This document shows positions 4,647 to 62,140 of a stretch of 64,000 bases of DNA, piece by piece (positions within the stretch are counted from its first letter, which is position 1; the number at the start of each line of letters is the position of its first letter). The stretch is from the NCBI GenBank assembly GCA_019359155.1, contig JAHHHV010000070.1, positions 1-64,000 of the forward strand, written 5' to 3'. The notes beneath the pieces are model-generated. The model was not told where the DNA came from, did no database searches, and saw only the letters and a list, made by a program, of their open reading frames with translations. Both the position numbers and the translations under genes were made by a program. Origin of the DNA: Pegethrix bostrychoides GSE-TBD4-15B. GTDB taxonomy: Bacteria > Cyanobacteriota > Cyanobacteriia > Elainellales > Elainellaceae.

Positions 4647-4658
4647 GACGACAAGATT

Positions 4659-7817: not shown

Positions 7818-7909
7818 TTGCTAGAGATTGATTCAGGAGAACCGGGCGCGGATCGAGTACAATCATCCATCAGGCTTGCTTGTTCTAGAACTCCTCACAA
7901 TCTCCAAGT

Positions 7910-8929: not shown

Positions 8930-8933
8930 TTTT

Positions 8934-9704: not shown

Positions 9705-9708
9705 GAAT

Positions 9709-9726
9709 TCAGAATAGTCAGAATAG
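9709..9726. repeat. 9-bp tandem duplication after the permease unit
   Basis: TCAGAATAG twice in tandem, 4 bp after the stop codon at 9702-9704. Confidence 0.75.
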
Positions 9727-9734
9727 CCGACAAA

Positions 9735-9758
9735 AAAGCCTGCGCTAAGGCAGGCTTT
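9735..9758 (-). terminator. Rho-independent terminator of sigA
   Basis: Perfect 9-bp stem AAAGCCTGC / GCAGGCTTT around the 6-nt loop GCTAAG. On the minus strand it is followed by a T-rich stretch (complement of 9732-9737). It lies 40 bases beyond the sigA stop and may also stop readthrough from the convergent permease genes. Confidence 0.85.
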
Positions 9759-9799
9759 ACAACTAACGAAATAACTAACGAATTTTTGAAAGGAGTATA

Positions 9800-10954
9800 T
9801 TAGCGGATATATTCTTTCAAGACACTGTTCCGGTTCGGGTGACGCAGCTTGCGGAGCGCTTTGGCTTCAATCTGGCGAATTCGCTCTCGCGTTACGTTGA
9901 AAATCTGGCCGATTTCTTCCAGCGTTTTCATCCGGCCATCATCTAAACCATACCGCAGGCGTAGCACGTCGCGTTCACGCGGGCTTAGCGTTCCTAACAC
10001 GCTTTCCAGGTCTTCGCGCAGTAGATTCTTAGAAACCTGATCCTCAGGCGTTTCGCCGTCGGATTCAATGAAGTCTCCCAGGCGAGAGTCCTCTTCTTTA
10101 CCAATTGGCGTTTCCAGCGAGATCGGCAGCTGAGCTGACTTGGCGATAAACCGCAGCTTCTCAATCGTCATCTCCATCCGCGTTGCAATCTCTTCCTCGG
10201 TGGGTTTGCGCCCCATTTCCTGAGAGAGCAGCTTCGTGGTTTTTTTGATCCGCGAAATCGTCTCGTAAAGATGCACAGGCAGGCGGATGGTGCGCGACTG
10301 ATCGGCAATAGCGCGGGTGATGGCCTGACGAATCCACCAGGTAGCATAGGTCGAAAACTTGTAGCCCTTTTCGTGGTCAAACTTCTCAGCCGCCCGAATC
10401 AAGCCCAAGCTGCCTTCCTGGATCAAATCCTGGAACGACAGACCCCGATTCATATACTTCTTCGCAATCGAGACGACTAAGCGCAAGTTAGACTGCACCA
10501 TTTTCTCTTTGGCACGTCGCCCTTCATGCAGCCGCCGCCGGAACTTAGGCAGCGTTTGATTGACCTCATTGGCCCAGGTTTCCAGGTTGAGTTCAAAATC
10601 CTGCGGGCTTTGCTCCAACCGTTCACAGAGCTTGTCTCGAATGCGTTCAAGCTCAAGCAAATCAGCAATCTTGCGCGCTAGCTCAATTTCCTCATCGGCT
10701 CTGAGCAGCCGGATTCGGCCAATCTCCTGTAAATAGAGCCGAATCGAATCTTCTGTATAGTGCTTCTTCTTGGCTGGGGTTCGACGGCGAGCTGCACCTT
10801 TAGTGGTTTTGCTGCTGCCGCTCTCTTCCTCAGATGCATCCTCAGACGAACCTTCAAATACATCATCTCGCTCATCGCCCTCTTCAACCAACAGTGCATC
10901 CAAATTGCTCTGGGATGGTTCAAGGGTTTCGAGTACGTCATTAGCCTGGGTCAT
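9800..10954 (-). CDS. sigA: Principal sigma factor SigA (RpoD, group 1)
   Basis: Housekeeping sigma-70 factor. 384 residues with an acidic, poorly conserved N-terminus (residues 1-65, rich in Asp, Glu and Ser). Region 1.2 is [17 protein letters not shown]. Regions 2.1-2.4 include [20 protein letters not shown] and the -10 recognition helix [18 protein letters not shown]. Regions 3 and 4 include [19 protein letters not shown] and the -35 helix [18 protein letters not shown]. Length and the intact region 1.2 to 4 fit the group-1 factor of cyanobacteria. Monocistronic, with a clear terminator. Confidence 0.94.
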
Positions 10955-11556
10955 GCCGCGCTCCTCATGCTCCTTACATCAAATTGAAAGTCAGTCACGC
11001 TAGGGCAGATGAGCCGCTAGCAGTTGAGCTGTTTGTGAACTGAGTTGTAGTTAGGTTTCTAGAACTGTAGGTTTCCAGAATTACAACCAGTCTGCTGATA
11101 GCTAACCCAAAGGCAAACGCTTGTCCTCAGCAAATGCCGAGAGTCAGCACCAAAACGGGAATCAATGCCTGCGGTTTTCGCTGAAGCCTCTCCGATTGTA
11201 ACTTTTCTCACAAAAGTTGCACGCTTTTTTAGACATTTCGCTGAGATGATTTGCTGAGATGAACTGAAATTCAAACTGTCTAAGACTGCGCCCGTTTTTA
11301 AGCTACAAAGTCAAGATAAACGCTCAGCAAAACTCCTTAGACTTGCTAATCGAACATGTTATGAGCCGCTACAGATGTACTCCTGAGTTGAATAAATCAT
11401 GCAGATGCTGCTGGAGAAATTGTTATGAATTCAGCATAACCGAACATTTGTGAACCGGCAGTAGAAATGAGTTCAAAAGTGGCTGTTTAACCCACTTTTA
11501 TGGTGCTCAATATGATTACTTTTTGTTACAAATAGAATATTACAGCAACAATAAAT
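10955..11556. other. Non-coding region upstream of sigA
   Basis: About 600 bases with no convincing gene; it must hold the sigA promoter (minus strand). A perfect 8-bp hairpin AAAAGTGG / CCACTTTT (11475-11499, 9-nt loop) lies in the middle. No T-run follows it on either strand, so it is not an evident terminator. Confidence 0.5.
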
Positions 11557-11594
11557 CCGGCTTGGCTGGCTGGCGAGTCAGCTAGCTAAGCCGG
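11557..11594 (+). promoter_or_regulatory. 15-bp hairpin before the Trp-rich gene
   Basis: CCGGCTTGGCTGGCT (11557-11571) pairs with AGCTAGCTAAGCCGG (11580-11594) over 15 positions with two G-U pairs as RNA, around an 8-nt loop. It ends 51 bases before the ATG of the Trp-rich protein, and no T-run follows. It may be a 5' leader structure controlling that gene. Confidence 0.5.
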
Positions 11595-11645
11595 TGAGAG
11601 ATCAGTTTGAGCCACTTAGCTTCAACCACCCATGATCAGGACGCG

Positions 11646-11903
11646 ATGCCCAAGAAACAAAAGTTTCCCTATCTAGTTGGATCCAAATGGACTTCGCAGC
11701 AAACCACCTGGGGCTGGCGGCATTTTCAGGTGGTCAACCGCAAAAACGAAGGTCGCTGGATATTTGCCGAGATGATTGCCGCCTGTGATCCCAGCGTCCG
11801 GTTTTGGCTCAACGCTCAGCAGCTTAAGGACAGCAATCTCTGGCAGGCAGGCTGGCAAATGCTGCAGGAGATTACGGCAGAGTCAGAGGCGAGTGAGACT
11901 TGA
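11646..11903 (+). CDS. TIGR02450 small Trp-rich protein
   Basis: 85 residues from ATG 11646, which has AGGA just upstream; an in-frame TTG at 11607 is less likely. The sequence follows the TIGR02450 pattern closely: PYLVGSKWTSQQ, then GWRHFQVVNRKNEGRW, then CDPSVRFWLNAQQLKD, then LWQAGW. It contains seven tryptophans. The family is found mainly in cyanobacteria and marine proteobacteria; function unknown. Convergent with the aldehyde dehydrogenase gene, 16 bp apart. Confidence 0.88.
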   Translation: MPKKQKFPYLVGSKWTSQQTTWGWRHFQVVNRKNEGRWIFAEMIAACDPSVRFWLNAQQLKDSNLWQAGWQMLQEITAESEASET

Positions 11904-11919
11904 GCGAGAGGCGAGCGAT

Positions 11920-13392
11920 TTAACCATCAAACACGACCGAATGCCAAGCTTTCTTTGCTTCGCCTGTCAGCTCCAGCATCACATGCTTCACGACAGTATA
12001 TTCTTCTAGCGCGTAGTACGACATATCTTTGCCAAAGCCGCTCTGCTTGAAGCCGCCGTGGGGCTGCTCGCTGGCAATCGGCAGATGGTCGTTGACCCAA
12101 ACCGTACCGCAATCCATCGCCGCCACCATCCGCATGGCGCATTGGACATTGCGCGTCCAGACGCTACCCGCTAAACCATAGGGCGTATCGTTGGCTAGCT
12201 TGACGGCTTCTGCCTCATCTGCAAAGCGATTCACCACGACCACCGGGCCGAAGATCTCTGCTTGGACGCAGCTAGCCGCTTGCGGGGCATCGACTAATAC
12301 AGTGGGTGGGTAGTAAAAGCCGGCGCCTTCAGGCAAAATGCCGCCCGTGACCACTTTCACGCCCTGCTGCCGCGCCTCTTCCACCATGCCATGCACCTTC
12401 AGCCGATGCGCTTCGCTGCTGAGCGGGCCAATATCGGTAGCTTCGTCAAACGGATCGCCGACTCGAATGCTGCGGCTCAGCTCGGTGAAGCGCGCCAAAA
12501 ACTGGTCGAACACCCCATCCTGCACATAGATGCGGGTGGCCGCCGTGCAGTCCTGCCCAGAGTTCATGTAGGCTGCCGGGATTGCGCCTCTGGCTGCGGC
12601 CTCAATATCGGCATCGGCAAACACCACAAACGGCGCTTTGCCGCCCAGCTCCAGGGTCACCCGCTTTACCATGGGACAGGCTAGCTCGGCGATGCGTTTG
12701 CCGGTGCGCGTGCTGCCGGTAAAGCTGATCATCCGGATATCGGGGTGGGTGCAGATGGCCTCACCCACTTCTGCTCCGCCCGTCACGACGTTGATCAAGC
12801 CTGCTGGAAAGCCGCAGTCTAAGGCAGTTTTGGCGAGTTCAATAGTGGTGATCGGCGTGTTGGGCGCGGGCTTAATCACCACGGCGTTTCCGGCGGCTAG
12901 CGCTGGCCCCAGCTTCCAAATCGCCATCATAAACGGATAGTTCCAGGGGGTAATCGCTCCTACTACGCCAATTGGCTCGCGGCGCGTCATGCTGGTATAG
13001 CCGCCGACATATTCGCCCGCAGCCGAGCCTTCCTGCCGCCGGACAGCCGCCGCAAAATAGCGCAGGTTGTCAATCGCAAACGGAATGTCGCCGCCGAGGC
13101 TCAGCTTGGTTGGTTTGCCCGCATTGCGGCTCTCCAGATGCGCTAGTTCTTCACTCTTGGCTTCCAGCGCGTCGGCGAGTAGCATCATGGCCGCGCTGCG
13201 TTCGCCATACGAGAGCGCCGCCCAGCTGCTTTGGGCTGTCTTGGCCACAGATACGGCCTGCTCTACATCCGCTTTTGAACCCAGTGCGACAGTGGCGAAG
13301 GGCTGGCCAGTGGCTGGCTCGATCAGGTCTTCGCTGCCGGTCGTCACCAGTGCTTTGCCAATCACCATCGGATAATGAGGTAGCTTGTCCAT
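11920..13392 (-). CDS. NAD(P)-dependent aldehyde dehydrogenase, aminobutyraldehyde type
   Basis: 490 residues, full-length ALDH fold. NAD-binding and catalytic features: ITPWNYPFMMAIWKLGPALA, the FTGSTRTGKRI Rossmann loop, the general-base glutamate in VTLELGGKAP, and the nucleophilic cysteine in SGQDCTAATR. The closest subfamily by appearance is gamma-aminobutyraldehyde/betaine-aldehyde dehydrogenase, which oxidises amino-aldehydes from polyamine breakdown. The exact substrate cannot be read from sequence. Single gene with a GAGG ribosome site. Confidence 0.87.
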   Translation of the reverse strand: MDKLPHYPMVIGKALVTTGSEDLIEPATGQPFATVALGSKADVEQAVSVAKTAQSSWAALSYGERSAAMMLLADALEAKSEELAHLESRNAGKPTKLSLGGDIPFAIDNLRYFAAAVRRQEGSAAGEYVGGYTSMTRREPIGVVGAITPWNYPFMMAIWKLGPALAAGNAVVIKPAPNTPITTIELAKTALDCGFPAGLINVVTGGAEVGEAICTHPDIRMISFTGSTRTGKRIAELACPMVKRVTLELGGKAPFVVFADADIEAAARGAIPAAYMNSGQDCTAATRIYVQDGVFDQFLARFTELSRSIRVGDPFDEATDIGPLSSEAHRLKVHGMVEEARQQGVKVVTGGILPEGAGFYYPPTVLVDAPQAASCVQAEIFGPVVVVNRFADEAEAVKLANDTPYGLAGSVWTRNVQCAMRMVAAMDCGTVWVNDHLPIASEQPHGGFKQSGFGKDMSYYALEEYTVVKHVMLELTGEAKKAWHSVVFDG

Positions 13393-13686
13393 AGGAGTGC
13401 CTCTTGAAATCGCTATAGTCCAACTCTATATATAAGTTCAATCTCTACAGACTGGGAACAAGTTGCTGAGGCACGATATCATCTATCAACAGATGGTTTA
13501 AACCTACTCTTGGGTGTGAGATTAGAGCAGGCTCGAAAAACCAGCGTAAACCAGCATATTGATGTTCGACTTCATGTTCGACTGCTTTTGCTCAGGCTTA
13601 TTGATGAAGAATCAGAGCTTCAACATCTGTGATTGGAGGTTTAATAGAGACTTAGCCGAGATTCGGGCGGTTGCTAGCGTATTGCC

Positions 13687-20350: not shown

Positions 20351-21246
20351 TGCAGTGCCAGATGCCGCCGCCGTTGCGTCCCGGCGCTCTAATTTCGGTG
20401 ATTGCACCCAGCGGCGCGCTGCGTGAACGCGATGCCCTCGAAAAAGGCACGCAGATCTGGCAATCACGCGGCTATCGGCTCCAGTTGGGAGCGGGCTACG
20501 ACGATCGCTGGGGCTATCTAGCGGGTACAGATCAGGCGCGGCGAGCACAGCTCACAGCCGCCCTGCAAGACCCAGACTGCAAGGCACTGCTTTGTCTTAG
20601 AGGTGGCTACGGTGGGGCGCGGCTCTTGGAAGACTGGCAGTGGCCCCCTGAAACCGGCGTTCAACCTAAATGGCTGATTGGCTTTTCGGATATTACTAGC
20701 CTGCTCTGGGGGCTGGCTGGTGAGGGAATAGCCGGGCTACATGCACCATTGCTCACCACCATCCATGCTGAGCCGGATTGGTCAGTGCAGCGGCTGTTTG
20801 ACTGTCTCGAAGGCCGCAGCCTAAAGCCTTTGCAGGGAACAGGCTGGGGCGGCGGCAAAGCCAGCGGCATCTTGCTGCCTGCGAATCTGACTGTGGCGAC
20901 GCATCTGCTCGGTACGGCAGCTCAGCCCGATCTCACCGACACGATTTTGGCCTTTGAAGATGTCTCTGAAGCACCCTACCGGATCGATCGAATGCTGACC
21001 CAGTGGCGGATGCTGGGTGCATTTCGGGGAGTCAAAGGCGTCGTCACCGGACGCTTTAGCCAGTGCGAACCTACGCCCAATATTCCCAGCTTCACGGTGG
21101 CAGAAGTGCTGCGCGACCGCTTGGGTGACCTGGGACTCCCGATTATTTCTGATTTACCGTTTGGACATGAGGGCGTGAATGCCGCTTTGCCAGTGGGTGT
21201 CCCCGTCGAGCTAGATAGCGATCTGGGTCAGCTCAGCTTTATCTAG
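20350..21246 (+). CDS. LD-carboxypeptidase, peptidase family S66
   Basis: 298 residues from ATG 20350. Family S66 enzymes cut the L,D bond that releases the terminal D-alanine of murein tetrapeptides during cell-wall recycling (LdcA type); microcin-resistance MccF is a relative. The serine nucleophile is in LIGFSDITSLLW, the catalytic glutamate in AFEDVSEAPYRIDRML, and the histidine in LPFGHEGVNAALPVG. LRGGYGGARLL is also conserved. Coupled to crtB by the TGATG overlap. Its 3' end overlaps the 3' end of the convergent cheA-like gene by 8 bp. Confidence 0.9.
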   Translation: MQCQMPPPLRPGALISVIAPSGALRERDALEKGTQIWQSRGYRLQLGAGYDDRWGYLAGTDQARRAQLTAALQDPDCKALLCLRGGYGGARLLEDWQWPPETGVQPKWLIGFSDITSLLWGLAGEGIAGLHAPLLTTIHAEPDWSVQRLFDCLEGRSLKPLQGTGWGGGKASGILLPANLTVATHLLGTAAQPDLTDTILAFEDVSEAPYRIDRMLTQWRMLGAFRGVKGVVTGRFSQCEPTPNIPSFTVAEVLRDRLGDLGLPIISDLPFGHEGVNAALPVGVPVELDSDLGQLSFI

Positions 21247-24073
21247 AACCAGAATCTAGAGCCAGACAGCTCTCTAGCGTCCGCAGCAGCTCTTTGTCGA
21301 GATAGGGTTTGGTCAGATAGGCGGATGCTCCCAGCTGCTGAGCCATCTGGCGGTACTTTTCGCTACTGCGGTAGGTGAGCATAATCACCGGGCATGTCAT
21401 TCCCTGCTGACGACAGCGGCTCAGAAACTCCAGACCGTTCATGCGCGGCATTTCAATATCGCAAATTACCGCTGCAATGCTGGAGCGCAGCCGCAGCTGG
21501 GCAATTGCCTCCCAGCCGTCTTTAGCCTGGAGCACCGGGTAACCCGCCTTGGCCAGCGTCGTGGACAGCGCGTGGCGAATCGTCAGCGAGTCATCCACCA
21601 CCAGCACCGTTGGAATGCTGGTGGTAGACAGCTTTTCGGGAGGCGGAGCCGAGATGGAGCAGATGGATTCGCCCTGGGAAAATTGCAGCCATTTTTCGAT
21701 TAGGGCTGGACCGTCCAGCACTGGAGCCAAGCGGCCATCGGCTAAAATCGTGCAGCCCGCGAGTCCAATGGGCGGAGCCACTGCATCGTTAAACGGCTTG
21801 ATCATCAGATCTTGCTCCAGCACAATCTGCTCCACCTTCAGTGCAATCACCTCTTCGCCATGTGAGATCAGCAGCAGCGGAAATTTCGTCGGCTTCTGCC
21901 AGGATTCACGCTGGCTGGTCATCTCCTGGTTCTCCAGCGCCTCCATGGCGCGGGGATAGTTGTAGCTCAGCAGCAGCGCTTCTGGATAGATCGGCACAAA
22001 TCGCCCCTGCCAGCGATAAAACTGCTGATCTTGATCCGCCTGAAGCTGCTGCTGGGCAGCCACCGTGATCGCCTCCAGCATATCTACCGGAATCGCCAGC
22101 AAATTGCCCTGAATGCTGAAGACCAGCAGCTTAGTAATCATTAGGGTCAGCGGCAGTCGCAGCGTGAAGGTTGTGCCGCGTCCCAGCTTAGAATCCAGCG
22201 TCACCACGCCCTTGAGCGCATTCACCTGAAACTGCACCGCATAGAGTCCCATGCCTCGCCCCGACAGGCTGCTGACTTCTCTCGCGGTTGAAAATCCTGG
22301 CGAGAACAGATAGTCGTAGAGCCTTTGCGGCGAGAGCGTTTCGGCCTCAGCAGTCGGCATGAGTCCTTGCTCAACGACCGCCGCCCGGATCTGCTCGGGG
22401 TCAATGCCCTGGCCGTCGTCCTGCACTTCTAAATAGGTTTGGTTACCGCGATGCCAAGCCTGGATTGTGATCTTGCCCTGAGCCGGTTTGCCAATCGCCT
22501 GCCGCAGTTCGGGTGACTCAATGCCGTGGTCAAAGGCGTTCCGCAGCAGATGCACCAGCGGATCGTAGAGCTTTTCTAAAATTGCTTTGTCCACCAACGT
22601 CTGGCTGCCGCGCAGGTCGAGCGTCACCTGCTTGCCCTCAGCAATTGCCAGATCGCGCACCATCCGCGGAAACTGATTGAACAGCTCGCTGACGGGCAGC
22701 ATCTGCGCCTGAAACAGATTGTTCTGCACCTGCTTCAGCGTTTTTTGCTTTTGCTTATCAAGGTGCTGCATCCGCTGGTCGAGCAGCAGCAGATCTTGAA
22801 TGGCCTCGCCCAGCTGCGCCATCTCTTCCACCACAGCCTGAGCGGTGGTTTGCAGGTATTCCTGGCTGCGGCTGCGGCTGCTGAGGCGACGCAGTCGCTT
22901 GGTGCTAATGGATCTGGCTGGCGGCTGGGAGGTAGGCAGCGGGCTGAGCGATGGGGTCAGCGGCACTAGCGGCGGCGACCACTGCTGCGACCAGCGGTTG
23001 AGACTGACGGTAAGCTGTCGAACGCGATTAAAGCACTGCGCCATCGATTCAATCGTCTCGACCTGCTGCTCATGCTGAGAGCGAAAGCGGTTGTCCTGGG
23101 TGGCCAGCTCGCTGACTAAGTTACTGAGCAGCTCTAGCCTTGTCCCGTCCGACCGCACATTCAGCGAGCGTTGAGCAGCAGGCAGCAGCGCCTGGGTCAG
23201 TGAAGAGACTAGTCCCGCATCGATTGGCTCTGGAGTATTGCCTATCAAGCTTTCGCTGGCCTGATACTGATTGGCCTGATACTGATTGGCCTGATACTGA
23301 TTGGCCTGATACTGGCTAGCCTGGTATTCATCCCACCATTCCGCAACGGCAGAGTCTAGCTCATCTGCCACGGGGATTTGGGGATCAAGCTGGGGATCAA
23401 GCTGGGCGGCATAGAGAGAACGCAGCTCTGCCAGCGCCGATTCGCCAATGGTTCGCGGCTGATCTGGAGTCTGCTGGAGTGCCGTGAGGCTACGCTCGCT
23501 GCTAGCGACGAAATTAGGGAGCTGAGCCAGTTCGCCTAACCCCCTAAAAATCTGGAGCTGCGCTTTGAGGGCAATCAAAATATCGGCATCGGCAGGCTGA
23601 GCCAGAATCGTCTCTAGCCGCTGCAACCCTTTCTCAATATCGACAGCGAATAGGAAATTGCTGCTCTGCCGGGGCGAGAGCTTTACCTCCAGCTCTCGCC
23701 AAATCGGATTGGTTACCGCCGCCTGGGCAATATCATCGCTGCTGCCCATATGAATCTCTTCCATCAGGGGCGTTTTGAGGCAGTCGAAAGCTTGCAACAT
23801 CAGACTTTCTAGCTCCAGATCCACGCTGAGCGAGGCACGCGAGCAGGTTTTGAGCACGGTTTCTAGGCTGTGTGCCAAGGTTTGAATCTGGCTCAGCCCA
23901 ACGCAGGCCGCGCCGCCTTTAATCGAATGCGCGGCTCGCATCAGGCTGTGCATTTTGGTGGGGCTATGGTCTTGCTGCAAGTCCAGCAGCCCTGCCTCCA
24001 GGGTTTGCAGCAGCTCCGGCACTTCTTGCAAAAAGAACTGATAGGACTCATGCGGACGAAAATCAGATACCAT
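21239..24073 (-). CDS. CheA-type hybrid histidine kinase with receiver (PixL-like)
   Basis: 944 residues. Order: Hpt domain with phospho-histidine His49 (RAAHSIKGGAAC), a long linker, a dimerisation/HATPase domain (N-box LLRNAFDHGIESPE, VQDDGQGID, GRGMGLYAV), a CheW-like domain, and a C-terminal receiver (VLVVDDSLTIRHAL, phospho-aspartate in VICDIEMPRMNG, lysine in YLTKPYL). This is the PixL/CheA layout of cyanobacterial phototaxis. The linker contains a 15-bp tandem repeat giving repeated QYQAN units (about residues 253-272). Last gene of the cheW-receptor-cheA unit. No separate CheY gene is in the cluster, so the fused receiver or a receiver elsewhere must act as output. Confidence 0.9.
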   Translation of the reverse strand: MVSDFRPHESYQFFLQEVPELLQTLEAGLLDLQQDHSPTKMHSLMRAAHSIKGGAACVGLSQIQTLAHSLETVLKTCSRASLSVDLELESLMLQAFDCLKTPLMEEIHMGSSDDIAQAAVTNPIWRELEVKLSPRQSSNFLFAVDIEKGLQRLETILAQPADADILIALKAQLQIFRGLGELAQLPNFVASSERSLTALQQTPDQPRTIGESALAELRSLYAAQLDPQLDPQIPVADELDSAVAEWWDEYQASQYQANQYQANQYQANQYQASESLIGNTPEPIDAGLVSSLTQALLPAAQRSLNVRSDGTRLELLSNLVSELATQDNRFRSQHEQQVETIESMAQCFNRVRQLTVSLNRWSQQWSPPLVPLTPSLSPLPTSQPPARSISTKRLRRLSSRSRSQEYLQTTAQAVVEEMAQLGEAIQDLLLLDQRMQHLDKQKQKTLKQVQNNLFQAQMLPVSELFNQFPRMVRDLAIAEGKQVTLDLRGSQTLVDKAILEKLYDPLVHLLRNAFDHGIESPELRQAIGKPAQGKITIQAWHRGNQTYLEVQDDGQGIDPEQIRAAVVEQGLMPTAEAETLSPQRLYDYLFSPGFSTAREVSSLSGRGMGLYAVQFQVNALKGVVTLDSKLGRGTTFTLRLPLTLMITKLLVFSIQGNLLAIPVDMLEAITVAAQQQLQADQDQQFYRWQGRFVPIYPEALLLSYNYPRAMEALENQEMTSQRESWQKPTKFPLLLISHGEEVIALKVEQIVLEQDLMIKPFNDAVAPPIGLAGCTILADGRLAPVLDGPALIEKWLQFSQGESICSISAPPPEKLSTTSIPTVLVVDDSLTIRHALSTTLAKAGYPVLQAKDGWEAIAQLRLRSSIAAVICDIEMPRMNGLEFLSRCRQQGMTCPVIMLTYRSSEKYRQMAQQLGASAYLTKPYLDKELLRTLESCLALDSGSR
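23258..23317 (-). repeat. 15-bp tandem repeat x4 inside the cheA-like gene
   Basis: Unit GGCCTGATACTGATT, four copies (the last diverged at its end) plus a degenerate fifth to 23332. In frame it encodes repeated Gln-Tyr-Gln-Ala-Asn in the Hpt-to-kinase linker. Confidence 0.9.
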
Positions 24074-24108: not shown

Positions 24109-27100
24109 CTATTGCACCTTGAACTGCGTGACGCTCTCCTGCAACGTCTCCGCCACGCCCAAGAGCTTTTTGAACGAAGCCGAGACATGCAGCGACTGCT
24201 CAGAAGTGCTGCGAGCAATCGCCTCCACGTCCTGTACCGTGCTAGAGACCGAGGCTGAAGCTTTGGTTTGGGCGTTGGCCGACTGAGCAATTTCTTCGAC
24301 GAGCTGCCGGATTTCACCGCTGACTGTGGCAATCGAAGTCAGCTTTTGGCGCGTCGTTTCTACCAGCTCAGTCCCGGAAACCACCTGTTCCAAGCCCGCC
24401 TCCATTGCCGTCACCACCTGATTGGTCTCCGACTGGATCTCTTCAACGATCTGCTCAATCTCGCGGGTGGCGGCGCTAGAACGTTCGGCCAGCGACCGGA
24501 CTTCTTCGGCCACCACCACAAAGCCTTGACCTTCGCTGAGCGGCCCGTTTGCCTCAATCGAGGCATTCAGCGCCAGCACATGCGTCTGGTTGGCCAAATC
24601 GCGGATCAGGCTGACGACGCGCGAAATTTTCTGCGAGGCTTCGCCCAAGCGCTTCACCTTCTGTGCCGTTTCGCCCACGGTTTCTTGGATCGCCAGGATG
24701 CCGTCTACGGTACGGTTCATCGCTGCATCGCCATCATGCAGCGTCTGGTCGGCCTGCTGGACTTTGTGCTGGGCGGCTTGGGCATTCGCGGCTACGCTCT
24801 GCATCGAGTCGGCCATCGCCTGAATCTGCCCCAGCGCCAGCGTAATTGACTCAGCCTGCCGCCTTGCCCCGGTCGAGAGCGTGCTGATCTCAGCTTCACT
24901 ACTCTGAGCGGTTTGGGAGACGGCTTCGGCAGAGGACTGTACCTGCCAAACCAGGCGCTGCAAGTTTTCAATCGTAGCGTTGAGGAACTGCGCCACCGTG
25001 CCAATCTCGCCGTCTAGGCTGCGGGCGCGCACAGTCAAATTGCCCTGGAACGCTTCGCCCATGTCGCTCAGCAGGGCTTCAAGCTGCCCCTGGATTGCCT
25101 CTTTCTGGTGGCGCTGCTCCTGCGAAGCTAGCTCAGCCTGCTGTCGGGCTTGATCCAGCTTCTCAATAAAGCTGATGTGGTCGAGTGCATATTCCATCTG
25201 GGTGGCCAGCTCCGAGAAAAAGTCTAGCTCTGGTTTTTGCCAAACACGTGCCTTAGAGCAATGATGGGCAATCAGCAGCCCCCAGAGCTGGTTGTCTTTG
25301 CGGATGGGCGCGACCAGATTGGCCTTCACGTCATATTGCTCCAGCGTCCGGATATGGCAGTCCGACAGCCCCGGCTCTTGATAGATATCGTTGATTGCCC
25401 GGACTCGTCCGTTGCGATACAGCTCAACATAGCGCCCCCGGAAGCAGGGATCGTCAATTTTGGCCTCTAAGACGCGCGGAAAACCGGGCATCACGGATTC
25501 GGCCACCATCGTACCGCCCCAGTTGGCATCAAACTGATAGACCATCACCCGATCGGTTTTCAGGGTTCGCAGCCCGCCCTGAGTCACGGTTTTGAGGATA
25601 TCCTCACGGCTAAGCGACTGGCGCGCCCGGAAGGCAATATCGCCAAACAGTCTGGCTCTGGTAGCGCTGGCCTGACTTTTCTCCAGAAAGCTGAGATGAT
25701 CCATCGCATATTCAATTTGGGTGGCTGCCTGCGCGAAGAAGTCGATCTCCGACTTTTGCCAGTTGCGCGGGCTGCTGCACTGATGGGCAATCAGTAGCCC
25801 AACTAGCTCGTTGTTTTGACGCAGCGGCGCGACCAGATTGGCCTTGACACTATATTTCTCCAGCGTCCGAATATGGCAGTCGGTGAGGCCGGGTTCCTGA
25901 CGAATATTGCTGATTGCCCGCACCCGTCCAGCTTTATATAGCTCGACATAGCGCCCCCGGAAGCAGGGATCGTCAATTTTTTCGTCCAGCACTCTGGGAT
26001 ATTCCGCCAGCACTGACTCGGCCACCATTGTGCCGCTCCAGTCTGCGTCAAATCGGTAGACCAACACCCGGTCAGCGCTGAGAATCTGTCGGGTTCCCTG
26101 AGCTGCCAGCCGCAGCAGATCGTTCAGATCATGCGACTGCCGTGCCCGGAAGGAGATCTCGCCAAAAAACCAGGCGCGCTGGGTGGCAGCTTCCTGCTGC
26201 TGAGCGGCAGTGATAAAGTCAAGGCTGTCTTCGGTTTCGGCGGCGAGCTGCGACATGAAATCAATGTCAGCCTGCGTCCAGATGCGCGCCGCAAGACACT
26301 GATGAGCAATCAGCAAGCCCCAGAGCTGCTCGTCTTGGCGGATTGGCACGACCAGATTGGCTCGGACGCGATATTGCTCCAGCAGCCGCACATAGCAGTC
26401 CGTCATCCCCGGCTCCTGGTAGATGTCGTTGATGGCTCGCATCCGGCCATTTTGATATTGGCTGACATACTTCTGCCGAAAGCAGGGATCGCCAATTGTC
26501 TCGTTGAGCACGGCAGGCAGTCCGTCGGCAATCGATTCGGCCACCATCGTGCCGCTCCAGTCGGGGTTGAAGCGGTAGACCACTACCCGGTCAGCGCCCA
26601 GATACTGCCGCGCCCCCTGCACCACCGTTTCATATAGGATCTCCAGCTTGGGCGACTGCCGGGTGCGCGCTGACAAACTGCTAAATAGCTGCCGCTGCTG
26701 AGCCTGCCGCTGCTGAGCCTGCCGCATTACCTGCATTTGGCTAGAGAGCTGCTTCAGGCGGTCTTCCAGCTGCAACAGTTCATTGCCCTCTGAGCCAAGT
26801 GGCACCAGCCTGCCCAATCGCGTCATCGCGGCATTGGCGTTCTCGATTGGCCGCAGCAAGCGCTGGCTCAGGAGGTTGGCTACCGCCACTGCTGCCACCG
26901 CGCTCAACATGCCGCCAAACAGCAGCGTCCCAGAACTAGGAAACAGATAGTTTGCCCCGCCAACTAGCAGAAGCGGCAACACACTAAATCCGACCGCCAT
27001 AATGGCCACCTGCTGCTTCAAGCCCCAATCCTGCCACCCGTGGGGTGACTTGGGGGATGTTGGTAGTACGGTAGCGAGTTCAGGCGCTGGGGCTGCTGAG

Positions 27101-27327
27101 GCTGCTGGGGCTGCTGTTGAGGCTGCTGGGACTGTCGCGAGCGGCGGCTCAGCAGCATGATCTAAGGGCAGCTCGATCGGGCTAGCATTGCCATTGAGCT
27201 GGATATCAAGGCTGCTGTCAAATCTGGGGAGATTGCTAAAGCTGCTCTTGACCTCTAGAACTGGCGCAGCTTCAAATTGATTGGGATAAGACTGATTGGG
27301 AAACGGGTCGGAGAAAGTTTCAGTCAC
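24109..27327 (-). CDS. Methyl-accepting photoreceptor with three DXCF cyanobacteriochrome GAF domains
   Basis: 1072 residues from GTG 27327. Order: Ala/Pro-rich N-terminus, two membrane helices (about 106-124 and 134-152), a HAMP-like linker, three tandem GAF domains (about 220-375, 395-545, 565-720), a coiled coil, and an MCP signalling domain (about 790-1072). Each GAF carries both cysteines of the DXCF bilin-binding class. The DPCF cysteines are C282, C455 and C628. The canonical chromophore cysteines are C311 (TDCY), C484 (TDCH) and C657 (SDCH). This is the PixJ layout with one more GAF than Synechocystis PixJ1, so it is probably a blue/green-type phototaxis receptor. GAF1 has Tyr instead of His after the canonical Cys. 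The MCP tip reads EANGPLSEGQGF where EAARAGE-type sequence is usual. Confidence 0.85.
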   Translation of the reverse strand: MTETFSDPFPNQSYPNQFEAAPVLEVKSSFSNLPRFDSSLDIQLNGNASPIELPLDHAAEPPLATVPAASTAAPAASAAPAPELATVLPTSPKSPHGWQDWGLKQQVAIMAVGFSVLPLLLVGGANYLFPSSGTLLFGGMLSAVAAVAVANLLSQRLLRPIENANAAMTRLGRLVPLGSEGNELLQLEDRLKQLSSQMQVMRQAQQRQAQQRQLFSSLSARTRQSPKLEILYETVVQGARQYLGADRVVVYRFNPDWSGTMVAESIADGLPAVLNETIGDPCFRQKYVSQYQNGRMRAINDIYQEPGMTDCYVRLLEQYRVRANLVVPIRQDEQLWGLLIAHQCLAARIWTQADIDFMSQLAAETEDSLDFITAAQQQEAATQRAWFFGEISFRARQSHDLNDLLRLAAQGTRQILSADRVLVYRFDADWSGTMVAESVLAEYPRVLDEKIDDPCFRGRYVELYKAGRVRAISNIRQEPGLTDCHIRTLEKYSVKANLVAPLRQNNELVGLLIAHQCSSPRNWQKSEIDFFAQAATQIEYAMDHLSFLEKSQASATRARLFGDIAFRARQSLSREDILKTVTQGGLRTLKTDRVMVYQFDANWGGTMVAESVMPGFPRVLEAKIDDPCFRGRYVELYRNGRVRAINDIYQEPGLSDCHIRTLEQYDVKANLVAPIRKDNQLWGLLIAHHCSKARVWQKPELDFFSELATQMEYALDHISFIEKLDQARQQAELASQEQRHQKEAIQGQLEALLSDMGEAFQGNLTVRARSLDGEIGTVAQFLNATIENLQRLVWQVQSSAEAVSQTAQSSEAEISTLSTGARRQAESITLALGQIQAMADSMQSVAANAQAAQHKVQQADQTLHDGDAAMNRTVDGILAIQETVGETAQKVKRLGEASQKISRVVSLIRDLANQTHVLALNASIEANGPLSEGQGFVVVAEEVRSLAERSSAATREIEQIVEEIQSETNQVVTAMEAGLEQVVSGTELVETTRQKLTSIATVSGEIRQLVEEIAQSANAQTKASASVSSTVQDVEAIARSTSEQSLHVSASFKKLLGVAETLQESVTQFKVQ

Positions 27328-27339
27328 GGATACCTGCCT

Positions 27340-27852
27340 CTAGTCTGCTTTTAATAGATCGAGAATTTTCGCTCCGTCCAGCACCAGTAAGGTCTTCTGA
27401 TCGGAGTTTTGGTACAGTCCCTTGAGGCAAAACGCCAGCTTGGGCGTCAGATCAATCGCCGACAGCGGCAGCGGCTGAATTTTGCTGGCCGCACAGAAAA
27501 TCAGCTGCCCCACCTGCTGCACTGCCATGCCGACATGCGACTGCATCCGGTGAATCACCATGACGCTCAGGTGCTGACGGCAGTTTTGGGCGAACAGCGT
27601 TTCTAGCCCTAAGAGCGCCGCTAAGTCAACAATCCATAACACTTCACCCCGATGGTTGCAGATGCCCATGACGGCCTTAGGCTGGTCAAAAATGGGCACT
27701 ATTTGGCTAGCTTCCAGGCTAAGTACCTCGCCTAGCTCTGCGGTCAAAATCAGCGCTTGCAGAGTCGGCGTGAGCTGGAAGCTGAGGAATTGGTAGCTTT
27801 TGTCAGCGGGTGCAGCTGGGTCTGAAGCCACGGAATATCTAAACTCACGCAC
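27340..27852 (-). CDS. CheW-like adaptor protein (PixI-like)
   Basis: 170 residues with one CheW fold: YQFLSFQLTPTLQALILTAE at the start, the conserved turn VMGICNHRGEVLWIVDLAALLG in the middle, and a C-terminal KTLLVLDGAKIL. CheW couples the receptor to the CheA kinase. GTG start with AGGAG upstream. First gene of the unit, 12 bp before the receptor gene. Its leader region (27853 onward) must carry the operon promoter. Confidence 0.88.
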   Translation of the reverse strand: MREFRYSVASDPAAPADKSYQFLSFQLTPTLQALILTAELGEVLSLEASQIVPIFDQPKAVMGICNHRGEVLWIVDLAALLGLETLFAQNCRQHLSVMVIHRMQSHVGMAVQQVGQLIFCAASKIQPLPLSAIDLTPKLAFCLKGLYQNSDQKTLLVLDGAKILDLLKAD

Positions 27853-28539: not shown

Positions 28540-30537
28540 ATGATCTGTTGCCTTAATCCGCAGTGCCAGAAACCCGTCAATCCTGATGATGCGAAGGTTT
28601 GTCAAAACTGCGGTACGGCATTGACGCTGCTGAGAGGGCGATATCAGGCTACTCAGCTTTTAGGACAGGGCGGCTTTGGTCGCACCTATCTAGCGCTCGA
28701 TGCAGACCGACTCAACTCTGAATGCGTGATTAAGCAGTTTTCGCCACAGGTGCAGGGGACAAAATCGCTGGAAAAAGCGGTGCAGCTGTTCAATCAAGAG
28801 GCCGTGCGGCTGCATGAGCTGGGCGAACATGCCCAAATCCCGGCGCTGCTGGCCTATTTTGAGCAAGAGGGCTATCTCTACCTGGTGCAGCAATTTATTG
28901 AAGGGCAAAGCCTGCTGCAAGAAATGAAGCAGCATGGGGCTTTCAATGAACGTCAGATCCGAGATGTGTTTGCTGACGTGCTGCCGATTTTGCGGTTTGT
29001 GCATCGGCATCAGGTGATCCACCGCGATATTACGCCGATGAATATTCTGCGGCGGCAGTCGGACGATCGGCTGATGCTGATTGACTTTGGCGTGGCTAAA
29101 CAGCTGAGCGAAGAAACGCCGGGTGAGGCGGGCACCCGCATCGGTACTGAGGGCTACGCGCCGATGGAGCAGTTTCGCGGCGGCAAAGCCTACCCAGCTA
29201 GCGACCTCTACAGCTTGGGCGCAACCTGCCTGCATCTGATGACCGAGGCACGCCCGGACAGCCTTTATGATCCGCTAAACGGCCAGTGGTTCTGGCGCGA
29301 ATATTTGCAGCAAAAAAAAGGCACCACGGTCAGCGATCAGCTGGCGCATATCCTCGACTATCTACTCAAAGATCTCGTCAACGAGCGCTACCAGTCAGCC
29401 GATGAGGTGATGCGAGACTTAAACGCTGACTCGTTTCTGCCCGCGACACGTCCAACTATCTCACCGCCCGCTCCGCCCGCCCCGCCGCCCGCCTCTGACC
29501 CTCGATCTCGATCTGCGCCCCCCAATTCCAGACCCCCCAATTCCAGACCCCCAACTTCTAGCCCGCCCTCGCGTCCCCCTGCTTCCCGTCCCCCTGTCGC
29601 TCGACCCGCTTCAGATAGCGCGCCTGCTAGGACATCTGGAACGCCGCGCGGCTCACGCTGCCTGCAAGTTCTGACAGGGCACTCGTCTTGGGTGACCTGC
29701 GTTGTGCCTAGCCCCAATGCACCCACGTTTGCCAGCAGCAGCCTAGATGACACAATTCGTGTCTGGAATCTGCATACGGGCGAGCCGCTATTGACGATGA
29801 CCGGACATAACCGGGGCGTGAATACGATCGCCATTAGCCCGGATGGCAGAACGCTAGTTAGCGGCAGCGATGACTATACGGTGCGGGTTTGGAGCTTCCT
29901 GAACGGGTCACTGCTGGGCGCTCTCACTGGGCACAGCCGCGATGTCAATGCGGTGGCAATTAGCCCAGACGGCAAGCTGTTGGTCAGCGGCGGCGAAGAT
30001 CGCACCATCCGGCTCTGGAGCACCAATACAGGTGCTTTGCTCAAAACCCTGGCCGAAGTGGCTGGCATGATCAAAACCGTGGCGATCAGTCCAGACGGCA
30101 AGTTTTTGGCTAGCGGTGGCCTAGACAACAAAACCAAGCTCTGGAGCCTGAGAACCGGCGAATATCTCCAGACTTTCATCGGTCATATCAACCCGGTTCA
30201 TGCCATTCTCTTCACGCCCGACGGCCAGACTCTGATTACGGCCAGCAAAGATAAAACTATCCGCCTCTGGAATGTGCAAACTGGCGAGCTAATCCGCACC
30301 CTGAGTGACCATATCCGCGATGTCAATGCCCTCGCTCTTACCGCCAACGGTAGAATCCTCGTCAGCGGCAGCTCAGACAACACCATCAAGTTCTGGGATC
30401 TGGCCGCAGGTAAAGTCCTGATGACTTGGAGCGAGCATAGCGATACAGTCAACTCCCTTGCGCTCAGTCCGGACGGCAAGCTTTTGCTCAGCGGCAGCTC
30501 AGATAAGACGATTCGGATTTGGCAGATGCCAACTTAG
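28540..30537 (+). CDS. Serine/threonine kinase with zinc ribbon and seven WD40 repeats
   Basis: 665 residues. N-terminal zinc ribbon (CLNPQCQKP with CQNCGTAL), then a protein kinase domain (about 33-295): glycine loop LGQGGFGRTYL, VAIK-type lysine in CVIKQF, catalytic loop HRDITPMN, DFG in LIDFGVAK, and APE-like YAPMEQF. A Pro/Ser/Arg-rich linker with short PPNSRPP repeats spans about 310-370. Seven WD40 units follow and should close into one propeller. Odd point: the catalytic-loop lysine usual in Ser/Thr kinases (HRDxKxxN) is threonine here. Cytosolic; the propeller probably recruits substrates or partners. Confidence 0.9.
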   Translation: MICCLNPQCQKPVNPDDAKVCQNCGTALTLLRGRYQATQLLGQGGFGRTYLALDADRLNSECVIKQFSPQVQGTKSLEKAVQLFNQEAVRLHELGEHAQIPALLAYFEQEGYLYLVQQFIEGQSLLQEMKQHGAFNERQIRDVFADVLPILRFVHRHQVIHRDITPMNILRRQSDDRLMLIDFGVAKQLSEETPGEAGTRIGTEGYAPMEQFRGGKAYPASDLYSLGATCLHLMTEARPDSLYDPLNGQWFWREYLQQKKGTTVSDQLAHILDYLLKDLVNERYQSADEVMRDLNADSFLPATRPTISPPAPPAPPPASDPRSRSAPPNSRPPNSRPPTSSPPSRPPASRPPVARPASDSAPARTSGTPRGSRCLQVLTGHSSWVTCVVPSPNAPTFASSSLDDTIRVWNLHTGEPLLTMTGHNRGVNTIAISPDGRTLVSGSDDYTVRVWSFLNGSLLGALTGHSRDVNAVAISPDGKLLVSGGEDRTIRLWSTNTGALLKTLAEVAGMIKTVAISPDGKFLASGGLDNKTKLWSLRTGEYLQTFIGHINPVHAILFTPDGQTLITASKDKTIRLWNVQTGELIRTLSDHIRDVNALALTANGRILVSGSSDNTIKFWDLAAGKVLMTWSEHSDTVNSLALSPDGKLLLSGSSDKTIRIWQMPT

Positions 30538-59022: not shown

Positions 59023-61266
59023 ATGACTATCCAAGTCCCTGAAAACACGGATTTACTTAGTAGTAATTTATATCGAAGCAAATCCAAGCAGGTCGGAGAA
59101 GGCCGGATGGTCGATCTGATTCGGGCTAACGCAGAGCTACGGCAGCAGATTAGTAGGCGGGTGCGGGCTGAGCAGGTTTTGCTCGAAACGAAGCGACGAC
59201 TGCGGCGACTGCTGGCCTTCAGCCCAATCGTGATTTACAGCAGCCAGCCGAGTGGCGACTACGGCATCACCTTCGTGAGCGAGAGTATTTTTAAGCTGGG
59301 CTATGAGCCACAGCAGTTTTTAGAAAATTCCTGGTTCTGGCAGCAGTGCGTTCACCCCGACGATCTGCAGCAGGTGCTAGCCGAGCTATCGCGTTTGAAC
59401 GAGCAAGGGCAGCGGCTGTTTGAATATCGGTTTTTGCATCAGGCGGGTCACTATTGCTGGATCCAAGACCAGCGCAAGCTGATTCGCGACGAAACTGGCA
59501 ACCCGATTGAGACAATCGGCTCCTGGCAGGATATTACGGAGCGCAAGCAGATGGAGCAGGCGCTGTTCCAAGAAAAAGAGCTGGCTCAGATCACGCTGGA
59601 GTCGATTGGTGATGCTGTGATCACCACCGACGCGGCAGGGCTGATCGAATACCTCAATCCTATGGCCGAGCAGATCACGGGCTGGCGAGCCACGCAGGCC
59701 AAAGGAATGCCGCTGGCCGAAGTCTTCAAAACCCTGAATGAAACCACTCGTCAGCCCGGAGAAAATCTGATTGAGCGGGTCAGAAGCTCTGGACGGGTGA
59801 TGGGGCTGGCCTACCCAACGCTGCTCGTGGCCAGAGACGGCACCGAATATGCCATCGACAACTCCGCCGCCCCAATCTGCGACCGCGAGAGCCGGATGAT
59901 TGGCACGGTGATTGTGTTTCGCGACGTGACGCAGCATCACTTTTTGGCGCGGAAGCTTGCCTGGCAGGCTGGCCATGACTCGCTGACCGGATTGGTGAAC
60001 CGACGCGGCTTTGAACAGCGGCTTACCGAAGCGATTGCCAGCGCTCAAGAGCCTGGGCAGCAGCATATGCTCTGCTATCTCGATCTCGATCAGTTCAAGG
60101 TGGTGAACGACACCTGCGGCCATATGGCGGGCGATGAGCTGCTGCGACAGCTGGCGGCACGACTGCAAAACCTGGTGCGGGCTTCTGATTTGCTGGCGCG
60201 GCTGGGCGGCGATGAGTTTGGGGTGATTTTGCACCAGTGCCCGTTGGAGGCCGCTAAACATGTTGCCAACAACATTCAGGAAACGATTCGCGACTTTCCG
60301 TTTGTCTGGGAGGACAAGACCTTTGCGATTCGAGCCAGCATTGGGCTAGTGGCGATCACCAGCGATAGCGGCGATCTCAACAGCGTCCTCAGCGCGGCGG
60401 ACTCAGCCTGCTATGCCGCTAAAGACAGCGGACGCGACCGGATTCATGTCTACCAGGCCGATGACCGCGAGTTGGCTCAGCAGCGGGGCGAGCGGCAGTG
60501 GGTGACGCGGATTCTCAAAGCGCTGGATGAGAACCGCCTCTGTCTCTACCACCAGGCGATTGTGCCAATTGTTGATCCGACGCTGCCCTCGCCGCCTGCC
60601 ATGCCGATGATGGGGCATTCCGAAATCCTGCTGCGGATGATCTCCGAAACCGGGGAACTCGTGCCGCCGATGGCCTTCATTCCAGCAGCCGAGCGCTATG
60701 GCCTGATGCCCGCCCTCGACCGCTGGGTAATTCGCACTTTCTTTGCCAGCTACAGCCGTCACGTCCAGGAGCATCTGCCGCCAGTGACGCCGCACCTCTA
60801 CACCATCAACCTGTCAGGAGCCAGCATCAACGATGAGCAGTTTTTGCCGTTTTTGAAAGAGCAGCTGGAGCTGCACCAAGTCTCCCCCCAGACCATCTGC
60901 TTTGAGATTACCGAAACCGCCGCTATCACGAACCTCAGCCGCGCTGCGCAGCTAATCAATGAGCTGAAGGCGCTGGGCTGCTACTTTGCGCTCGATGATT
61001 TTGGCAGCGGCATGAGTTCGTTTGCCTATCTGAAAAATCTGCCGGTAGACTACCTCAAAATCGACGGCAATTTTGTCAAAGATATTGTTAGCGATCCGAT
61101 TGACAGCGCTATGGTGGACTGCATCAACCGAATTGGGCATGTGATCGGGATTCGCACGATTGCGGAATTTGTCGAGAACGAGGTGATCTTGGCAAAGCTG
61201 CTGGAGCTAGGCGTAGATTTTGCTCAAGGCTACGGCATTTCCCAACCGCGCGCGCTACGGCTCTAG
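59023..61266 (+). CDS. PAS-PAS-GGDEF-EAL cyclic-di-GMP protein
   Basis: 747 residues, no membrane helix. A short N-terminal coiled coil, two PAS domains (about 60-180 and 190-310), a GGDEF domain (about 320-480) and an EAL domain (about 490-745). The GGDEF motif is intact (RLGGDEFGVIL), with the product-inhibition site RASD five residues upstream. The EAL motif reads EILLRM, and downstream catalytic residues are present (CFEITETA, LDDFGSGMSS, DYLKIDGNF). Both synthesis and breakdown of c-di-GMP are therefore possible. The adjacent response regulator may work with it. Confidence 0.92.
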   Translation: MTIQVPENTDLLSSNLYRSKSKQVGEGRMVDLIRANAELRQQISRRVRAEQVLLETKRRLRRLLAFSPIVIYSSQPSGDYGITFVSESIFKLGYEPQQFLENSWFWQQCVHPDDLQQVLAELSRLNEQGQRLFEYRFLHQAGHYCWIQDQRKLIRDETGNPIETIGSWQDITERKQMEQALFQEKELAQITLESIGDAVITTDAAGLIEYLNPMAEQITGWRATQAKGMPLAEVFKTLNETTRQPGENLIERVRSSGRVMGLAYPTLLVARDGTEYAIDNSAAPICDRESRMIGTVIVFRDVTQHHFLARKLAWQAGHDSLTGLVNRRGFEQRLTEAIASAQEPGQQHMLCYLDLDQFKVVNDTCGHMAGDELLRQLAARLQNLVRASDLLARLGGDEFGVILHQCPLEAAKHVANNIQETIRDFPFVWEDKTFAIRASIGLVAITSDSGDLNSVLSAADSACYAAKDSGRDRIHVYQADDRELAQQRGERQWVTRILKALDENRLCLYHQAIVPIVDPTLPSPPAMPMMGHSEILLRMISETGELVPPMAFIPAAERYGLMPALDRWVIRTFFASYSRHVQEHLPPVTPHLYTINLSGASINDEQFLPFLKEQLELHQVSPQTICFEITETAAITNLSRAAQLINELKALGCYFALDDFGSGMSSFAYLKNLPVDYLKIDGNFVKDIVSDPIDSAMVDCINRIGHVIGIRTIAEFVENEVILAKLLELGVDFAQGYGISQPRALRL

Positions 61267-61390: not shown

Positions 61391-62140
61391 ATGACCAAGA
61401 TTTTAGTAATTGAAGATGAACGCGCCACCCGCACCAATATCATCAATTTCCTGGAGGCGGAGGGCTTTGATACCTTGGTGGCTGAAAATGGCAGGCTGGG
61501 CATCCAGCTGGCGCAGTCGCATTTACCCGATCTGATTATCTGCGACATTTTGATGCCAGAACTAGACGGCTACGATGTGCTAACAACCCTGCAAGAGGAA
61601 ACCCAAACTGCCTCGATTCCGTTTATTTTTCTCACCGTCACGGCAACCGAAGCCGGGTTTCAGCAAAGCCTGGATCTGGGTGCTGACGACTACCTCAGCA
61701 AGCCGATTACCAGCGAGCAGCTCCGCAAGGCCATTGCCGTTCAGCTCCAGAAACAGGCCGAGCAGCTTGACTATCCGGAGACAGACATGGCTACCGACTC
61801 GCTTAGCCAGCCAGCCAGCCCTGAACTGCAATTGCTCAAGGCCAAAGATCAGCTGTTCAATCAGCTTGCGCAGGGCGTGAAGCCGCATCTGGCCAAGATT
61901 AGCCGTGCGGCACAGGCGCTAAAGCAAAAGACGGCTCGTGAAGCCAATCGTGAAGCCAATAATCGTGAAGCCAGTCACGAAACCCACCAGCATCTGCAAG
62001 AGCTGCAAGAGGGCACAGCTCGCGTCTTAGCGCTGGTGAACGAAATCACGGCGCTGCACAACATGCTAACCCCCGAAAATGCTGACCTGCTGCTGGAGCA
62101 GTTTAACCTCGCCGATGAGTCGGAGCGCCATTCGCTCTAG
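61391..62140 (+). CDS. Response regulator with helical C-terminal part
   Basis: 249 residues from ATG 61391. Receiver domain at the N-terminus (1-125): ILVIEDERATRTNI, phospho-aspartate in ICDILMPELDGYD, threonine in FLTVTATE, lysine in DYLSKPITSE. The rest is helical with heptad-like leucines and a small REAN-REANN-REAS repeat (about 184-197). The helical part recalls a histidine-kinase dimerisation segment but shows no phospho-histidine motif or ATPase. Probably co-expressed with the GGDEF-EAL gene 124 bp upstream. Confidence 0.85.
   Translation: MTKILVIEDERATRTNIINFLEAEGFDTLVAENGRLGIQLAQSHLPDLIICDILMPELDGYDVLTTLQEETQTASIPFIFLTVTATEAGFQQSLDLGADDYLSKPITSEQLRKAIAVQLQKQAEQLDYPETDMATDSLSQPASPELQLLKAKDQLFNQLAQGVKPHLAKISRAAQALKQKTAREANREANNREASHETHQHLQELQEGTARVLALVNEITALHNMLTPENADLLLEQFNLADESERHSL

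Follow-up and report, generated by a model that had tools for sequence, protein, structure and literature searches.

A PixJ-like receptor with three predicted dual-cysteine bilin sites and its candidate response regulator in Pegethrix bostrychoides

Introduction

According to a review (PMC5812497), PixJ1 of Synechocystis has two GAF domains, the second of which alone binds a bilin, and PtxD (NpF2164) of Nostoc punctiforme has seven, at least six of which bind a bilin and provide six colors. In the Wsp system of Pseudomonas, a receptor of the methyl-accepting chemotaxis protein (MCP) type and a CheA-like kinase act on a receiver protein tied to cyclic di-GMP (c-di-GMP) enzymes (PMC8846402). We compared these systems with a PixJ-like receptor of the cyanobacterium Pegethrix bostrychoides GSE-TBD4-15B, encoded in a stretch of 64,000 nucleotides (assembly GCA_019359155.1, contig JAHHHV010000070.1, positions 1 to 64,000; the whole stretch is called the window). 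An earlier note on this DNA had described three dual-cysteine sites in the receptor and had set them against a PixJ1 with two GAF domains, a count with which the review agrees.

Several dual-cysteine sites on one receptor are already known. The window receptor may be a pixJ variant that signals via a response regulator encoded in the same window (positions 61391 to 62140), perhaps to c-di-GMP. On the evidence presented below, we give a little better than an even chance to the proposal that a light receptor with three like DXCF domains signals through PixI and PixL, most likely to this regulator.

Results

Three like sensor domains on one receptor

The receptor gene starts with GTG and encodes 1072 residues on the minus strand, in which Pfam finds three GAF stretches and one MCP signaling domain (Table 1). 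Each GAF domain carries a DPCF motif and a canonical cysteine at exactly the residues named in the earlier note (i.e., C282/C311, C455/C484, and C628/C657). The protein has nine cysteines in all (282, 311, 344, 455, 484, 517, 628, 657, and 690); the third cysteine of each GAF domain sits in an AHQC or AHHC motif, and the same motif occurs in TePixJ entry 3vv4. The canonical cysteine lies in the context TDCY in GAF1, TDCH in GAF2, and SDCH in GAF3. Since the gene contains three direct repeats (297 nt each, with 519-nt spacing) and all 28 GAF domains of the clade described below retain both cysteines, these pairs represent more than chance.

An alignment with characterized DXCF domains had been suggested along with the original observation. 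A common profile aligned GAF1 to GAF3 with TePixJ, both cysteines included, and phmmer aligned GAF3 with TePixJ entries 3vv4, 4fof, and 2m7u across both cysteine motifs. The second and the canonical cysteines of all three domains thus stand at bilin-pocket positions, not away from the pocket, as is characteristic of the DXCF class. The levels of identity to the solved blue/green domain of TePixJ are 47% (GAF1), 47% (GAF2), and 48% (GAF3). The predicted model of GAF1 (predicted local distance difference test score, 90.8; alignment of 36 chosen domains) superimposes on TePixJ 4glq with a root mean square deviation of 1.1 and a template modeling (TM) score of 0.92 by target length; the lowest E-values in a structure search with this model belonged to 6ob8 and 6oap, a dual sensor histidine kinase. 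Each of GAF1 to GAF3 would most likely bind a bilin covalently, with the color of the solved TePixJ domain.

In a tree of 86 GAF domains (>130 aa, from 25 chosen loci; quick search, with support from the Shimodaira-Hasegawa approximate likelihood-ratio test [SH-aLRT] only), the 28 domains of ten loci formed one group (support, 98), and all 28 have kept the DPCF motif and the canonical cysteine. Within this clade, GAF1, GAF2, and GAF3 of receptors with three or four GAF domains clustered by position across species (support, 99, 89, and 82, respectively). The exceptions were the GAF domains of loci L055 and L056, which form a group of their own apart from the others, and those of L081, whose GAF1 and GAF2 are sisters. 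That the window triplet was shaped by recent tandem duplication or by gene conversion was ruled out, because its GAF domains group with those of the same position in other species. Judged by this tree, the window GAF domains are old, mostly position-specific paralogues. Comparisons of the window receptor with those of L021 or L022 gave nonsynonymous divergence (dN) values of 0.13 to 0.17 in each GAF domain, with synonymous divergence (dS) at or near saturation, a pattern indicating purifying selection on each of the three. The N-terminal 95 residues are loosely kept in the same comparisons (dN, 0.75 to 0.86). L022 and L050 represent the same protein, as do L021 and L051, and each pair was counted once. 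The hydrophobic residues that follow (approximately 103 to 155) probably form a membrane hairpin with no periplasmic domain.

An operon with pixI and pixL beside which pixG and pixH are missing

The receptor gene is preceded by pixI (12-nt gap) and followed by pixL (35-nt gap), all on the minus strand; because of the shared strand and the short gaps, pixI-pixJ-pixL is probably one operon, and the three genes are presumably cotranscribed. PixL has kept the Hpt histidine motif, the N and G boxes, and the receiver residues. Among the ten loci of the clade, pixL lies beside the receptor gene in all ten (in pieces in L104), and pixI in seven; L054 is cut at this place, and none was found in L055 or L056.

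A membrane MCP with cyanobacteriochrome GAF domains beside CheW and CheA genes, as in the pix/tax1 type, is thus present, while the genes for a PATAN-receiver protein (PixG) and a CheY-like protein (PixH) are absent from the cluster. Absence was judged by phmmer, with two receiver proteins of L059 and the receiver of PixL as queries: near the window pixIJL, neither gene was found, and the receiver-type matches in the window were pixL and two distant genes. The same held for 16-kb stretches of genomes G002 and G017 (L076 and L077) and for the flanks of L052, L053, L055, L104, and L105; the flanks of L054 and L056 are short. Elsewhere in the same genome, there are three other clusters with genes for a DUF4388-receiver protein, a CheY-like protein, CheW, an MCP, and CheA (DUF4388 is, we take it, the Pfam name of PATAN). 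In a fourth further cluster, no CheA gene was found within the stretch read. The loss of pixG and pixH is not unique to receptors of the window's kind, because L107 (with the receptor of L023) lacks both in 16 kb and has the usual MCP hairpin tip; L107 also rules out a strict tie between the altered tip described next and the missing genes.

Head to head with pixI, the window encodes what by eye appears to be a serine/threonine kinase with WD40-type repeats (28540 to 30537), and genes whose products start similarly lie upstream of pixI in L050 and L051.

An altered MCP hairpin tip

The usual MCP hairpin tip follows the pattern EA-x-[RH]-A-[GS]. Its [RH]A[GS] core is kept in 65 of 76 MCP domains; the 11 domains without it are those of the ten loci of the window's kind and L070. 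All ten receptors have lost the RAG core, and their tips read NGPLSEGQ, NGSAGEGQ, NSSSEGQ (one residue shorter), NGSDKEGQ, NGSWQEGQ, SDSAKEGQ, KGAGIEGE (twice), NSSGDRTQ, and NSSGDQSQ. Conservation in the tip columns is below that in the flanks in these ten (0.63 versus 0.88), a difference nearly absent from the other receptors (0.78 versus 0.79). In a tree of the 76 distinct MCP domains (>300 aa; tip columns excluded; quick search, with SH-aLRT support only), the ten loci did not form one branch: eight stood together (support, 91), and L055 and L056 joined receptors with five GAF domains (support, 84). In Escherichia coli receptors, trimer contacts and determinants for CheA and CheW lie near the hairpin tip (PMC4692393). 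The window tip also differs from the receptor tips of the three complete clusters elsewhere in this genome and may insulate the receptor from other receptors in the cell.

A response regulator linked to pixIJL and to a GGDEF-EAL gene

The C-terminal half of the window regulator is predicted to be a long helical hairpin. HisKA was matched by 15 of 21 members of the regulator family, the window protein itself being unmatched; for this alignment, 20 of 30 listed stretches were combined with the window protein, and the other ten were excluded (the window copy, five repeats or near-repeats, one stretch with no ATG, and three receiver-only matches). This half looks like a degenerate dimerization domain with no output enzyme, and the window regulator has no GGDEF.

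A regulator with this distinct C-terminal half adjoins pixIJL in four genomes, i.e., G385 (L104), G355 (L105), G392 (L052), and G393 (L053), as counted at pixIJL loci. When each of these genomes was searched as a whole with the window regulator, the top match among 92 to 150 scored candidates was in all four cases the protein encoded next to pixIJL. Conversely, searches with the regulators of G355 and L053 returned the window regulator as the best match in the source genome and its orthologues as the best matches in G002 and G017. The L056 regulator was not taken as a member of the same family, being a receiver-only match with a C terminus that is AraC-like by eye. In L104 (G385), the regulator and pixL are each broken into pieces in different frames (5233 to 6014 and 10842 to 13596), through either an error of assembly or genuine damage.

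In G385 and G355, the regulator and pixI are separated by a gene, here called X (L104, 5986 to 7155; L105, 5617 to 6699), whose two copies are 50% identical. X has no Pfam match and no match in the window, and its L105 copy was unmatched in the open reading frames (ORFs) of L050 to L056, L076, and L077. In G355, genes for a GGDEF-EAL protein, the regulator, X, pixI, pixJ, and pixL follow each other in a run, on one strand and with short gaps.

The regulator gene lies directly 3' of a PAS-GGDEF-EAL gene in the window and in G002, G017, G001, G004, G355, and G385. The GGDEF and PAS parts of the window enzyme match NCBIfam domain models, and GGDEF, EIL, and DDFGSG motifs are present. An orthologous enzyme is encoded adjacent to pixIJL in G385 and G355 only. 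The longest match to the window enzyme in G385 is another protein (C232; 591 bits); the protein encoded in the pix run gives two separate matches (545 and 356 bits), at higher identity than C232. The GGDEF-EAL protein encoded beside pixIJL in L052 was ruled out as an orthologue (26% identity over 393 positions). No GGDEF-EAL gene was noticed among the flanking ORFs of L053, one of which was scanned with Pfam, and the window enzyme was unmatched in G392, G393, and G394 at an E-value of 1e-120. For the GGDEF-EAL part of the enzyme, matches at 62 to 63% were obtained in G395 and G396.

Table 1. Features of the window around the PixJ-like receptor and its candidate regulator
Feature	Positions	Strand	Description
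PixJ-like receptor	24109..27327	-	1072 aa; loosely kept N terminus, two predicted membrane helices, three DXCF GAF domains, MCP signaling domain
Two hydrophobic stretches	26863..27021	-	About residues 103-155; from hydropathy
GAF1	26212..26712	-	Residues 206-372; DPCF C282, C311-Tyr; model TM score 0.92 (target length) to TePixJ 4glq
GAF2	25693..26193	-	Residues 379-545; DPCF C455, C484-His
GAF3	25174..25674	-	Residues 552-718; DPCF C628, C657-His
MCP signaling domain	24217..24687	-	Residues 881-1037; Pfam stretch
Altered hairpin tip NGPLSEGQ	24526..24549	-	Residues 927-934; replaces usual ARAGExGR type
PixI-like CheW protein	27340..27852	-	12 nt upstream of receptor gene
PixL-like CheA	21239..24073	-	Hpt, HATPase, CheW-like, C-terminal receiver; catalytic motifs present
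PAS-PAS-GGDEF-EAL protein	59023..61266	+	Directly before regulator; orthologues in pixIJL gene run of G385 and G355
Response regulator	61391..62140	+	Receiver and C-terminal helical hairpin, apparently of HisKA ancestry; relatives beside pixIJL in four other genomes

Distribution and other multisite receptors

Matches to the receptor above 1000 bits occurred in 5 of 388 genomes of the class, in 3 of 36 of its own family, and in 2 of 63 of the family of G355. The source genome belongs to the same genus as G002, whose receptor is identical to that of Elainella sp. Prado103. A scan of genome contigs added L052 to L056 as further receptor loci. Receptors of the window's kind have two, three, or four DXCF GAF domains, L054 and L056 being cut or gapped at the start. 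The contig of L054, with a receptor and CheA of cyanobacterial type, is filed under Myxococcota (MO_167.B22), most likely through a binning error.

Across the surveyed loci, receptors carry from zero to five DXCF motifs, which rules out a fixed number of sites as the norm. At least four are found in L029, L057, L059, L066, L088, L096, L097, and L101 to L103, as well as in L081, which is of the window's kind; three dual-cysteine sites are accordingly not unique. In view of these receptors and of PtxD (PMC5812497), they represent a variation on a known theme. The literature searched, which leaves out most subscription papers, does not name the architecture of this receptor.

Several other multisite receptors were encountered in the survey. 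L078 (G035; 7842 to 12683) encodes a 1614-aa receptor with six consecutive GAF matches; in five of these, as read in L029, DPCF is combined with Cys-His. Its cluster includes pixG-, pixH-, pixI-, and pixL-like genes. In the five-GAF receptors of L064 (Trichodesmium) and L068 (a Microcoleaceae metagenome-assembled genome), one GAF domain lacks both cysteines and its neighbors keep them; by its residues, this is sensor decay inside an array. In L109 (G094; 3403 to 7011), a CheA with two Hpt matches adjoins a receptor with four DXCF motifs.

Discussion

Proposed pathway and alternatives

We propose that three DXCF domains of one class on a membrane chemoreceptor would sense light, each most likely holding phycoviolobilin that is doubly linked in the dark and switching between blue and green as TePixJ does. 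The light state would pass through the MCP helix bundle to PixI (CheW) and PixL (CheA with a receiver), encoded in the same operon, and phosphate from PixL would most likely reach the receiver-plus-HisKA-like regulator rather than adjacent PixG and PixH, which are absent. Having more than one sensor of the same class may increase photon capture or steepen the switch. Complex formation, the phosphotransfer partner, and any effect on motility or c-di-GMP are presumed, and the end point may be the pilus, c-di-GMP, or both. The c-di-GMP output is the weakest step: we consider doubtful, as a whole, a light-gated pathway from a triple dual-cysteine receptor with an altered tip via its own CheA and a receiver-pseudoHisKA protein to the PAS-GGDEF-EAL enzyme. 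The earlier note's term "phototaxis receptor" is likewise presumptive, because PixG and PixH are not encoded beside the cluster and the regulator with the strongest link points to another output, either instead or in addition.

Several observations weigh against signaling to this regulator. It is encoded 33.5 kb from pixI in the window and on another contig than the receptor in G002 and G017. Its C-terminal half (E-value, 0.001) occurs in 21 of the 388 class genomes, i.e., in 5 of 5 with the receptor and in 16 of 383 without it, counts that come from related, nonindependent genomes and carry no significance test. G016 and G030 have full-length relatives (45 to 46%) and no receptor, and G001 and G004 (77% complete), from the same genus, keep the pair of regulator and GGDEF-EAL genes without it. 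In the two-GAF relatives L055 and L056, the CheA has no receiver, pixI was not found, and the flank that was read contains no regulator of this kind. With its altered tip, the receptor might couple only weakly to CheA. Finally, PixG and PixH encoded elsewhere in the genome, in the three complete pix-like clusters, could act as partners of PixL in trans. This last point belongs to the possible reading as an ordinary PixJ phototaxis receptor, to which we assign well below an even chance, in which PixL phosphorylates PixG and PixH of other clusters and the output is the type IV pilus. Besides these clusters and the fourth found without CheA, such a reading draws on the two PixG-/PixH-size receiver genes that precede pixI in 10 of 12 related five-GAF loci (in L059, the only one scanned, Pfam finds a receiver and no DUF4388) and on PixJ1 and PtxD, which the review treats as phototaxis receptors (PMC5812497). 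It fits less well with the relatives with readable flanks, which have no adjacent pixG or pixH and four of which adjoin the same other regulator, or with a tip unlike those of the receptors in the three complete clusters.

Two further explanations concern the receptor itself. The earlier note had called the GAF domains near-identical and had expected more than one absorbance band. Their pairwise identities are 53%, 56%, and 65%. The three have stayed separate from a time before the species diverged, as would suit sites tuned to different colors, with a comparison of bands as in PtxD and Tyr312 as one tuning change. All three, nevertheless, are DPCF-plus-Cys domains about equally near TePixJ, which speaks against several bands, and no signs of differing color classes were found among the sequence features that can be checked. 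The tyrosine after the canonical cysteine of GAF1, to which the note had drawn attention, is indeed present and sets this domain apart; it is not a stable GAF1 feature, since two close relatives have His there, and it recurs in only 3 of the 28 clade domains (window GAF1, L080 GAF1, and L053 GAF3). Tuning of GAF1 by Tyr312 is possible, while different colors at the three sites seem unlikely to us. Far less probable still is a decaying receptor, with the altered tip uncoupled from CheA and light sensors persisting with no output. The reduced conservation of the tip columns in the ten receptors and the state of L055 and L056 (no pixI detected and no CheA receiver) would suit decay; the long ORFs found in several genomes, the low dN of the GAF and MCP domains at near-saturated dS, the 28 intact cysteine pairs, and the retention of pixL and pixI beside most of the receptors argue against it.

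Significance and comparison with known systems

The genome has at least four further chemotaxis-like clusters, and the window cluster offers a testable case for signal separation, with its departing tip, its own kinase, no adjacent PATAN regulator, and a candidate regulator that is linked with an enzyme of c-di-GMP. Should the regulator link prove false, the receptor would still be a clear example of a retained triplet of like photosensors.

With TePixJ, the window receptor shares the DXCF GAF fold and both cysteines, and with PixJ1 the arrangement of a membrane MCP with CheW and CheA genes (PMC5812497). PixJ1 has one bilin site on two GAF domains, as opposed to three predicted sites here, and the window cluster differs from both in the absence of pixG and pixH and in the altered tip. 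PtxD is similar in that a single MCP, encoded in a chemotaxis-like cluster, carries several bilin-binding GAF domains (PMC5812497), bilin binding being predicted in the window; its seven GAF domains and six colors contrast with three domains of one class. The five-GAF pixJ group (Okeania, Lyngbya, Trichodesmium, and kin; L057 to L068) consists of near neighbors in the MCP tree, with two to four DXCF GAF domains each and the pixI-pixJ-pixL order where readable. It differs in a separate GAF expansion, a fifth GAF domain with no full DXCF motif, the receiver genes before pixI mentioned above, and a tip that keeps RA[GS].

WspE is a CheA-like kinase with a receiver, and the window CheA also carries one; no cognate receiver-GGDEF output protein is encoded in the same cluster. 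The likeness to Wsp lies in an MCP-type receptor, a CheA-like kinase, and a receiver protein tied to a c-di-GMP enzyme. WspR combines receiver and cyclase in one protein, whereas the window regulator and GGDEF-EAL protein are separate genes, their link to the kinase is one of synteny only, and the input is light. If that link is true, the cluster would be a photosensory counterpart of Wsp, with its tip keeping it apart from the cell's pilus-linked pix arrays, and light would reach c-di-GMP via a CheA phosphorelay rather than via an enzyme-fused sensor as in SesA or Cph2 (PMC5812497).

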